Positions 2,831-5,436 of a stretch of 64,000 bases of DNA are shown here, piece by piece; position 1 is the stretch's first letter, and each line of letters starts with the position of its first letter. The DNA comes from Exiguobacterium alkaliphilum 12/1 (GTDB lineage Bacteria; Bacillota; Bacilli; Exiguobacteriales; Exiguobacteriaceae), in contig NZ_JJMW01000015.1 of the NCBI RefSeq assembly GCF_000714435.1, positions 62,001 through 126,000 on the forward strand, in the 5' to 3' direction. The notes under the pieces are model-generated. The model did not search any database, was not told the origin of the DNA, and was given only the letters and a program-made list of their open reading frames with translations. The translations under genes were made by a program, and so were the position numbers.

Positions 2831-2850
2831 AAAAAAGCGTGCCACCGGGG
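2831..2850. terminator. Left arm of a dps/ampS terminator split by the IS
   Basis: AAAAAAGCGTGCC followed by ACCG and GGG. The matching arm, GGCACGC plus TTTTT, lies on the far side of the insertion sequence at 4311-4322. Removing the element and one GGG copy restores GCGTGCC, loop ACCGG, GGCACGC with A and T runs, a bidirectional terminator between two converging genes. Confidence 0.85.
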
Positions 2851-2862
2851 TAAACTGTACCC
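2851..2862 (+). repeat. Left terminal inverted repeat of the IS
   Basis: TAAACTGTACCC; it matches the reverse complement of the right end at 11 of 12 bases, and weaker similarity goes on for about 25 more bases. Confidence 0.82.
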
Positions 2863-2943
2863 TGAGTAGTAGACACTAAAAAAAAGTCTACTGCTCAGGG
2901 TTTTTGTGTACACTGGACTAAATCATATTGGGAGTGAATTCGA

Positions 2944-3384
2944 GTGTCGAAGAAGATATTTACGTCAAAAGAAATAGATGCGCTAGCCGCAAATCCTTAC
3001 GTTAAATCTGTGAGCCCGAAAGGGATCACGTATACCGATGAGTTTAAGGAACTTTTTATAGCACAGACGTTGGAAGGAAAGTTCCCTGTGGAAATCTTCC
3101 GGGGATGTGGATTCGATGTGGAGGTACTCGGTGAACGGCGTATGAGTTCTTGTAAAAATCGTTGGACACGAGCTTACCGAAAAGATGGGGTAATGGGGCT
3201 GCGCGATACACGATCAAGTAATTCAGGACGTTGGAGGGATAAAGAGCTGTCGACAGAAGAACGGTACGCGAAGCTCGAGGCCGAAAACAAACTGTTGAAA
3301 GCAGAGGTCGAACTATTAAAGGAGATCCGCCTGGCGGAAGGGAGAGGAAAGCTGGACTTAACGCATCGCAAAAGTATGAGCTGA
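2944..3384 (+). CDS. IS3-family transposase OrfA (helix-turn-helix)
   Basis: DNA-binding subunit of the IS transposase, 146 residues with a GTG start after GGGAGTG. Two helix-turn-helix-like segments (about residues 25-60 and 60-85, including GERRMSSCKNRW) are followed by a leucine zipper-like stretch (YAKLEAENKLLKAEVELLKE) that mediates OrfA-OrfAB contacts in this family. OrfB is in the -1 frame; CGC AAA AGT near the end of this gene holds an A AAA G slip site, so a fused OrfAB by programmed -1 frameshift is likely, as is known for IS3 elements. Confidence 0.9.
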   Translation: MSKKIFTSKEIDALAANPYVKSVSPKGITYTDEFKELFIAQTLEGKFPVEIFRGCGFDVEVLGERRMSSCKNRWTRAYRKDGVMGLRDTRSSNSGRWRDKELSTEERYAKLEAENKLLKAEVELLKEIRLAEGRGKLDLTHRKSMS

Positions 3385-3410
3385 TTCAAGGTGTCATCAT
3401 CAAGCACAAA

Positions 3411-4271
3411 ATGAAGGGGATGGTCAGCCATCTCTGCCAGGTGGCCGGGGTGTCACGTCAGGGATACCACGCCTATTTCTCGAAACGGAGGAGACAGATC
3501 AGACAGGAGCGCGAATCGAAAGACGTGGCTCTTCGTGACCTCGTTCTGAAGGCGTTCCACTTCAAGAAGCGCAAGAAGGGTGCTAGGCAGATCAAGATGG
3601 TGCTGTCTGGTCATTTCGGTGTGACGATGAACCTGAAGTGTATCCGACGTATCATGCGGAAATACAACATCGTTTGTCCAATCCGCAAGGCGAAGCCATA
3701 CAAACGGCTCATTAAGGCGACGGCCGAGCACCGGGTGGTGCCGAATCGCCTCAAACGCGAATTCAAACAGGGCACTCCCTACAAGGTGCTTCTCACCGAT
3801 ATCACCTACATATTTTACGGGAACGGTAAGCGAGCCTATCTTTCGACCATCGTGGACGGTTCGACCAATGAGGTACTGGCGCATCAACTCTCTGAGAACA
3901 TCAATCTCGACATTGTATTGGATACGTTGAAGCGTTTACGGAAGAACCGGAGGATTCGCTTGGACAAGGACGCATTCATCCATTCAGATCAAGGAGGGCA
4001 CTACACGAGCCCGACCTATCAGAAAGAGGTGAAGCGTATGAAGCTAGGTCAATCCATGTCCCGACGGGGCAACTGTTGGGATAACGCTGTCCAGGAATCA
4101 TTCTTTGGACATTTCAAGGATATCGTCGAGTTAAAGGCCTGTACCACGTTCGATTCACTACAGCGTGAAATCCGAAAAACCATTAACTATTACAACCATC
4201 ATCGTTATCAATGGAACATGAAAAAGATGACTCCCGTACAGTACAGGAATCATCTCCTTGAATCAGCATAA
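3411..4271 (+). CDS. IS3-family transposase OrfB (DDE integrase)
   Basis: Catalytic part of the IS3 transposase. The rve integrase core shows the DDE triad in LLTDITYI, IHSDQGGHYTS and QESFFGHFK. The usual IS150-group ending YYNHHRYQWNMKKMTPVQYR is intact. The frame is open upstream to about 3350 without a start codon (AS QKYELIQGVIIKHKMKG), which supports expression mainly as an OrfAB fusion by frameshift; the ATG at 3411 is only the first in-frame start. No stop or missing residue suggests decay. Confidence 0.93.
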   Translation: MKGMVSHLCQVAGVSRQGYHAYFSKRRRQIRQERESKDVALRDLVLKAFHFKKRKKGARQIKMVLSGHFGVTMNLKCIRRIMRKYNIVCPIRKAKPYKRLIKATAEHRVVPNRLKREFKQGTPYKVLLTDITYIFYGNGKRAYLSTIVDGSTNEVLAHQLSENINLDIVLDTLKRLRKNRRIRLDKDAFIHSDQGGHYTSPTYQKEVKRMKLGQSMSRRGNCWDNAVQESFFGHFKDIVELKACTTFDSLQREIRKTINYYNHHRYQWNMKKMTPVQYRNHLLESA

Positions 4272-4297
4272 GTTTTTTTATTAATGTCCTTTACAAG

Positions 4298-4309
4298 GGG
4301 TACAGATTA
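4298..4309 (-). repeat. Right terminal inverted repeat of the IS
   Basis: Read on the minus strand it is TAATCTGTACCC, one mismatch from the left end. Confidence 0.82.
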
Positions 4310-4323
4310 GGGCACGCTTTTTG

Positions 4324-5436
4324 TTATTTCAAATTTTCTGGATTGAGTGGCAAGAGCGAGTCGACGACGAAGCGACCGTCTTTCCGAATCAACACGTCAT
4401 CGAACCAAATCTCGCCGCCGCCGTAGTCCGGGCGTTGGATGTTGACGAGGTCCCAGTGGATGGACGAGTCGTTACCGTTATAAGCGTCGTCATACGCCTG
4501 ACCCGGTGTGAAGTGGAAACTACCATCAATCTTCTCATCAAACAAGATGTCTTTCATCGGGTGTTGGATGTATGGGTTGACGCCGATGGCGAACTCGCCG
4601 ACGTAACGGGCGCCTTCGTCCGTATTGAACACGTCGTTGATACGGTCCGTATCGTTTGCCGTCGCCTCGACGATCTTTCCGTCTTGGAACGTCAATTTCA
4701 CGTTCTCGTACGTGAACCCGTGATACGGTGACGGCGTGTTGTACGTGATGACGCCGTTGATTGAGTCTTTCACCGGCGCTGTGAACACTTCACCGTCCGG
4801 GATGTTCATTTGGCCCGAGCATTTGATGGCCGGGATGTCTTTGATGGAGAACGTGAGGTCCGTTCCCGGTCCTGTAATCGTCACGCGGTCGGTCTCGTTC
4901 ATGAGGCTGACGAGGGCGTCCATCGCCCGGTCCATCTTGCCGTAGTCGAGCGTGCAGACGTTGAAGTAAAAGTCTTCGAACGCCTCGGTCGATTTCCCGG
5001 CGAGTTGGGCCATCGACGGCGACGGATAGCGGAGTACGACCCAGCGCGTCCCTTTGACGCGGTCTTCTGTGTGCATTTTCCCGATTGTCGCGCCGACAAG
5101 TTTTTGCTGTTCGGCCGGCACATCGGATAATTCATTGATGTTGTCCCCGGCACGAAGACCGATATAGGCGTCCATTGCTTGCATCTGTTTCCGTTCGATA
5201 TCTGCCATCAGCTCGAGCTGTTCTCGGCTCGCTCCCATGTAGAGCTTGCGCAGGATTCGACTCTCTTTCAACAAGACGAATGGATGACCACCTGCTTCGT
5301 ACGCCTTCTCGACGAGTGCCTCGACGAGCGATTCTTCGACTCCAAAATTCTCGATTAGCACGCGTTCCCCCGGCTTCAATTCAACCGAATAGTTGATTAA
5401 CCCATCCGCGAGTTGCGTGATTCTTGGATCTCTCAT
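4324..5436 (-). CDS. ampS: M29-family metallo-aminopeptidase (AmpS-like)
   Basis: Cytoplasmic metal-dependent aminopeptidase of family M29 (AmpS/PepS/AmpT), which trims N-terminal residues from peptides. The 370 residues run in the family order, with metal-ligand regions NIPDGEVFTAP, YHGFTYENV, DGSFHFTPGQAY and SSIHWDLV visible in the C-terminal half. It is slightly shorter than the roughly 410-residue family members I know. The ATG at 5436 follows AAGGGGTGG. It converges on dps; its stop is only 14 bases from the insertion sequence, which removed one arm of its terminator. Confidence 0.9.
   Translation of the reverse strand: MRDPRITQLADGLINYSVELKPGERVLIENFGVEESLVEALVEKAYEAGGHPFVLLKESRILRKLYMGASREQLELMADIERKQMQAMDAYIGLRAGDNINELSDVPAEQQKLVGATIGKMHTEDRVKGTRWVVLRYPSPSMAQLAGKSTEAFEDFYFNVCTLDYGKMDRAMDALVSLMNETDRVTITGPGTDLTFSIKDIPAIKCSGQMNIPDGEVFTAPVKDSINGVITYNTPSPYHGFTYENVKLTFQDGKIVEATANDTDRINDVFNTDEGARYVGEFAIGVNPYIQHPMKDILFDEKIDGSFHFTPGQAYDDAYNGNDSSIHWDLVNIQRPDYGGGEIWFDDVLIRKDGRFVVDSLLPLNPENLK

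Follow-up and report, generated by a model that had tools for sequence, protein, structure and literature searches.

An insertion sequence lies between dps and ampS in Exiguobacterium alkaliphilum 12/1, in the loop of the terminator hairpin that the two convergent genes share. This locus raises the question of whether the element landed there by accident or because its transposase seeks out such places. The window is the whole stretch of DNA that was analysed, 64,000 nucleotides long (contig NZ_JJMW01000015.1, positions 62,001 to 126,000). The site comprises the following features:

2376-2828, + strand: dps, coding for a ferritin-like Dps protein (Pfam PF00210, 3e-22), the gene 5' of the terminator
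2831-2843, + strand: left arm of the host terminator, an A-tract plus GCGTGCC, AAAAAAGCGTGCC (sequence; repeat pair I6)
2848-2850, no strand: left copy of the GGG target duplication (boundary set by other copies of the element)
2851-4309, + strand: IS3-family insertion sequence of 1459 bp with ends TAAACTGTACCC...GGGTACAGATTA
4298-4309, - strand: right terminal inverted repeat, matching the left end at 11 of 12 bases in direct reading
4310-4312, no strand: right copy of the GGG target duplication (sequence and the element boundary in other copies)
4311-4322, + strand: right arm of the host terminator, GGCACGC plus the T-tract TTTTT (repeat pair I6), whose first two bases (4311-4312) are common to the right GGG duplication
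4324-5436, - strand: convergent gene for an ampS/pepS-type M29 aminopeptidase (PF02073, 2.5e-55)

The initial annotation placed a 1459-bp IS3 element, flanked by GGG duplications, between terminator arms at 2831-2843 and 4311-4322. The arms hold on re-reading of the sequence and the repeat pairs, and the element is correct to the base. Its boundaries were taken from other copies and not from a repeat search alone. Partial copies in the element's own genome break at window positions 2851 and 4309 (query 8 and query 1466), and 11 full-length copies from G011, a different species of this genus, cover exactly bases 1-1459. Because other copies break at identical bases, the element is assigned to 2851-4309. 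The two host arms are 100% complementary over 12 nt (repeat pair I6). Removal of the element and one GGG restores the hairpin, as had been proposed: the joined site folds into a 12-bp stem with a 5-nt loop (-18.0 kcal/mol), which 0 of 200 shuffles equal. The duplication sits 3 bp off the hairpin axis and the right T-tract is just 5 bp away. The insertion had also been called recent, and this is supported by the fact that the window copy differs at only 4 of 1459 bases from each of the 11 G011 copies, which are identical with one another. In the assembly of the element's own genome (G000), the contig pairs C39/C67 and C38/C46 are equally long and identical in the 1531 bases read (L004 = L005, L006 = L007); contamination is listed as 7.58%.

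The empty site that the annotation proposed to look for in sister strains exists. At all 17 orthologous loci read by eye in the genus, an uninterrupted hairpin directly follows the dps stop codon, a count that includes L111, which stops at a contig edge, and leaves out the window's own locus, L123 (a paralogous dps of G005) and G018 (no match). L110 carries the stem predicted by the annotation with a different loop, AAAAAGCGTGCC-TCGCT-GGCACGCTTTTT. The flanks of three G011 insertions likewise find matches in 19, 19 and 15 of 19 genus genomes. Among the twelve loci taken for each, G011 included, the sister loci show by eye an uninterrupted hairpin in 11/11, 11/11 and 10/10 cases (32/32; L341 stands outside these 32). 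Creation of the hairpin by the insertion is thereby ruled out, both at dps and at the G011 sites.

The following features of the element bear on its placement:

2944-3384, + strand: orfA, with an HTH_Tnp_2 domain (PF20310, 3e-15)
3243-4271, + strand: orfB frame (342 codons open), coding for the DDE transposase (NF033516, 5e-77; rve PF00665; frame extent)
3316-3338, + strand: putative -1 frameshift site TTAAAG (3316-3321) with a small hairpin (3326-3338), by comparison with TTAAAAAAG or CTAAAAAAG in relatives

Apart from its unusual target, which holds across the clade, the element is a regular IS3-type transposon. The NF033516 match of OrfB lies above the cut-off and is accompanied by rve domains. 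Two frames overlap, orfB being open in the -1 frame from 3243 across the putative slippery site, and the GGG duplication falls within the 3 to 5 bp of the family. The slippery point reads A AAA AAG in relatives and only TTAAAG in the window. In the elements of G094 (L171) and G295 (L166), the transposase frame is open for ~475 codons, and since OrfA and OrfB appear fused there, no frameshift seems to be needed. Termini of the form TG...CA are usual in the IS3 family, though not universal; the window group ends in TAA...TTA and its sister groups in TGA...TCA, so that membership rests on the transposase. Relatives on plasmid records that are 60-65% identical are named 'IS3 family transposase' or are nameless, and OrfB matches none of the solved structures searched at E 0.001. 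In a tree of 29 transposases, the window element belongs to a Bacilli clade of 19 rows (100/100), 18 of which we labelled terminator-targeting. IS150, to whose group the initial annotation assigned the element, forms another supported clade with c172b and c274b, linked to the window clade through an unresolved fork; IS150 was labelled terminator-targeting from a reading of its hok sites, the weakest of the labels. HTH_Tnp_2 (PF20310) is found in OrfA of the window element and of the four clade relatives scanned, while IS150 InsJ and c172b carry other HTH domains.

The dps/ampS site is one of many, since the element's clade selects terminators; this had been overlooked in the initial annotation. 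Ten of the 11 full G011 copies are flanked by a 3-bp duplication, and by eye all sites except L025 look like split terminators, L028 weakly so; in several, the duplication makes up the entire loop (CAT, GGC). At eight of the 11 insertions, the axis of a strong dyad, defined by a stem score of 25 or more, is no more than 4 bp away (p 4e-17). Chance is a poor explanation, because such positions make up only 0.47% of 398,400 sampled from ~400 kb of G011. Terminator-like arms again flank related elements at ten loci of Bacilli whose proteins are 62-70% identical.

Seven multi-copy sets from Bacilli genomes, and then two more, were delimited by comparison of copies, and the stem scores of true flank pairs were set against those of left flanks joined to wrong right flanks (swaps). 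In the first set of 54 sites, the median score is 30 (also the score of the window site) versus 11.5 for 1065 swaps; 42 sites exceed the 95th percentile of the swaps and 35 the 99th. After de-duplication and removal of mirror readings of symmetric-ended elements, 50 of 69 clade sites score above 95% of 2719 swapped-flank controls (~3.5 expected). A 3-bp duplication is present at 64 of the 69, of which 48 pass the same threshold, as do 20 of the 23 sites of the window group. Among the 19 that fail are both copies of t234, a member of the same clade in which no hairpin is seen, three of five G275 copies and one further G094 copy; some failing sites look rearranged, the duplication being absent, and others are plain misses. 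Scoring excluded 14 loci for which no second copy was suitable for setting the ends (L153, L154, L155, L245-L255), L152 and L179, whose ends deviate, L237, whose ends could not be located, and L060, where no duplication was seen. It also excluded half-sites at contig edges and a truncated copy from the element's own genome (L002, L003, L006), the partial copies L010/L018 and L030/L031, and L043; several of these resemble terminator arms. At L242 (G040), the stem of the invaded terminator was scored as perfect over 20 pairs, and the orientation of the element cannot be read from its ends alone because they are nearly symmetric. At L011 1501-1701 (G015), a remnant of ~200 bp keeps stretches near both element ends and has lost the middle.

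Seven IS3-type sets outside the clade were picked as controls before their flanks were seen, and only two behaved as such: none of the 11 sites of c275 (genome G275) and c274a (G274) passes the stem score. The other five are partly positive (c140a 4/10, c140b 1/5, c172a 3/5, c172b 2/3, c274b 1/3), so the preference for such sites is not limited to the clade.

What the transposase recognises was approached by alignment of 33 targets. A dominates at positions -13 to -16 and T at +14 to +16; inside the arms no base is fixed and the stems have no sequence in common, which excludes a family of the REP/PU type. The median spacing from the duplication to the A-tract and to the T-tract is 11 and 11 bp in the window group, and ~15 bp in the G140/G274 sister group. 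In many sites the duplication lies 0-1.5 bp from the hairpin axis. It is quite probable, in our judgement, that the transposase picks intrinsic terminators and inserts into the loop of the hairpin, and we infer that it recognises their architecture rather than a fixed sequence. It would read the GC-rich dyad, make its 3-bp stagger at the axis, and find the A-tract and the T-tract about one helical turn to either side; the insertion splits the host terminator. From sequence, a target that forms a hairpin looks the same as a duplex target with two-fold symmetry.

The tracts could in principle suffice. If the transposase read A- and T-tracts at a fixed spacing, or bendability, the hairpin would be incidental, and the dominance of just these bases, with no other conserved base and with a spacing that varies among subclades, fits such a reading. 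The tract spacing, however, recurs at 68 places in ~400 kb of G011; the stem is strong at 22 of these and scores below 15 at 37, whereas all ten duplicated G011 insertions score 16 or more. Spacing alone is therefore insufficient. At the threshold of 25, the 8 of 11 insertions differ from the 22 of 68 tract-spaced places with p 0.014 (Fisher test), and several sites are without one of the two tracts. We consider targeting by tracts unlikely; dyad and tracts both seem to matter.

Slightly less likely still is that the element follows transcription, i.e. a paused or terminating RNA polymerase, or a hairpin opened at active terminators. Stem, tracts and gene ends all occur together, as this would predict, but orientation relative to gene ends shows no bias over 93 sites: with open frames of 80 codons or more as stand-ins for genes, ends are found on the left-end side in 17, on the right-end side in 28, on both in 24 and on neither in 24.

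Selection would dispense with targeting altogether: insertions would be widespread and survive only in harmless gene ends. Terminators are intergenic, their loss is perhaps tolerated, and at 69 of the 93 sites an open frame ends no farther than 90 bp away on one side or both. Yet selection would neither put the duplication 0-1.5 bp from the hairpin axis nor spare other intergenic space; c275 and c274a, in two of these same genomes, avoid terminators (0/11), and the identity of the G011 copies leaves little time for purging. Selection alone is thus rejected, and we regard it as improbable. A single chance insertion, which the initial annotation implied, accounts for the dps/ampS site and nothing further, and is refuted by the other copies in G011 and across the clade, leaving it next to no probability.

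The proposed structure-guided targeting by the transposase is accompanied by a second peculiarity, at the ends of the element:

2859-2905, + strand: terminator-like hairpin of the element itself (arms 2859-2874 and 2886-2901) with a T-tract (fold z -7.5; covariation)
2851-2856, + strand: TAAACT, -10-like hexamer of a predicted circle-junction promoter, 17 bp from the -35-like hexamer across a 3-bp junction
4290-4295, + strand: TTTACA, the -35-like hexamer in the right end (junction promoter comparison)

The left-end hairpin folds with -28.2 kcal/mol, and a hairpin followed by T's is present in all 20 left ends examined. An alignment of 16 left ends gives 92.9% paired cells for the 16-bp helix, ten pairs of which have changed on both sides; the alignment contains 46 compensatory cells versus 15.1 in shuffles. 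Slid versions of the helix reach at most 42.7% pairing, and RNAalifold recovers it unaided with 13 pairs. Transcripts that enter from the left end would stop at this terminator hairpin and would not reach the transposase genes. When the element transposes, the ends joined in an IS3-type circle would create a -35/-10 promoter. With 3 bp set between the ends of the circle, 17 of 20 elements have TTTACA, TTGACA or TTGACT 17 bp from a TAAACT-like hexamer across the right-left junction; the predicted promoter is absent from three TGA-ended elements of the 20. Its transcript is predicted to start near 2863, ~7 bp past the -10 hexamer and inside the left arm of the hairpin; only the junction transcript would then avoid forming the hairpin in full. 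In its shortened form, 12 pairs remain (-17.6 versus -28.2 kcal/mol) and GGG is left unpaired before the T's, for which reason weaker termination is predicted. In IS10 and IS50, a hairpin that forms only in outside-derived transcripts silences the transposase by blocking translation; for the window element, termination of the outside transcript is predicted instead.

The left-end hairpin also bears on the read-through between dps and ampS that had been expected to yield antisense RNA to each gene. From dps towards ampS this is doubtful, as the hairpin at 2859-2905 faces dps. In the other direction the expectation stands as a possibility: the right end has no terminator facing ampS, and its folding in the ampS direction is no better than that of shuffles. 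Read-through from dps is thus predicted to be blocked and that from ampS not; transcripts from ampS could enter the element and be antisense first to the transposase and further on to dps. A hairpin scanner, which cannot list the left-end hairpin because it takes loops of 3-8 nt, reports two minus-strand matches, at 3338-3326 and 3432-3419, a number that shuffled sequences also reach. The lack of orientation bias rules out that the terminator of the element is turned towards the gene upstream, and indicates that its placement does not serve the host.

The window clade is a new, terminator-selective variety of target-selective IS (cf. IS1397); IS1397, IS1272 and group IIC introns come nearest, none is identical, and IS1272 belongs to another IS family. 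IS1397, ISKpn1 and ISPsy8 are likewise IS3-family elements with short palindromic intergenic targets, but they hit the host's REP/PU repeat family, whereas the window clade hits terminators without a common stem sequence; their transposases are regarded as responsible for target choice (PMC1525189). IS1272 of Staphylococcus also targets a potential stem-loop and not a sequence (PMC5678879), but it replaces the target inverted repeat without duplication, whereas both arms and 3-bp duplications are present at the G011 and clade sites. Intrinsic terminators also serve group IIC (bacterial class C) introns as places to insert (PMC3522654), but these are retroelements that insert downstream of the terminator and use IBS motifs, whereas here a DDE transposon enters the loop. 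The literature searched, with subscription papers largely outside it, contains no report of IS3 elements targeting terminators, which is weak evidence of novelty.

IS150 of E. coli, the nearest named IS compared (33% identity between OrfB and InsK), offers a parallel. Among the 40 matches listed, 12 insertions were read: 10 adjoin hok-type genes, and 8 have a GCCCC arm on the left and a GAGGC arm on the right. By eye, we take these arms to be the edges of Sok terminator hairpin loops. IS150 differs, though, in lying outside the window clade and in using one family of sites, and none of the 12 insertions passes the stem score (at most 20.0), their loops being long. Hot spots of IS150 at hok/sok loci are described in evolution and mutation-accumulation studies (PMC5419217, PMC5289635), trg/mokB being one in mutation-accumulation lines (PMC5289635); insertions within genes, e.g. 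pflB, are also reported. Coordinates published in PMC5419217 misfit the REL606 map away from the origin, and only two hokC positions can be placed; by eye, both fall inside or at the edge of a putative SokC hairpin. The link of IS150 and hok/sok to the same target rule is suggestive only.

Tentatively, and with rather less than even confidence, we propose that a widespread IS3 clade with HTH_Tnp_2-type OrfA combines structure-guided insertion into terminator hairpins with a built-in end terminator that would separate host read-through from the junction-promoter transcript, and that IS150 at hok/sok is a further case. Held with the same reserve, terminator hairpins would be nearly neutral landing sites that are plentiful in bacteria. 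If this proposal is right, a general target class can be named for a group of common elements, one that accounts for their positions at gene ends and their spread without killing genes. Read-through and antisense RNA would arise predictably where insertions split terminators, and there would be a testable DDE transposase that selects DNA through hairpin architecture. Where IS150 repeatedly hits type I toxin-antitoxin loci in evolution experiments, this may then reflect target preference and not selection only.

More distant elements behave in diverse ways. By eye only, and outside the scored set, six copies of Hydrogenovibrio relatives (30% identity) show no terminator. In E. coli K-12, seven of eight copies of IS2 and IS3 lie inside genes or gene remnants, as judged from annotation and unscored. 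Clean ends were not obtained for the Thorsellia and Butyrivibrio sets. Elements of the c274a set (L221-L226, G274) repeatedly occur within tandem-repeat arrays of 41/82 bp (GCGTTGC...) or next to them, apparently another target preference. In L073-L079 (Butyrivibrio, Lachnospiraceae; 35-40% identity), relatives have long flank stretches beyond orfB in common, perhaps passenger genes of a larger element.
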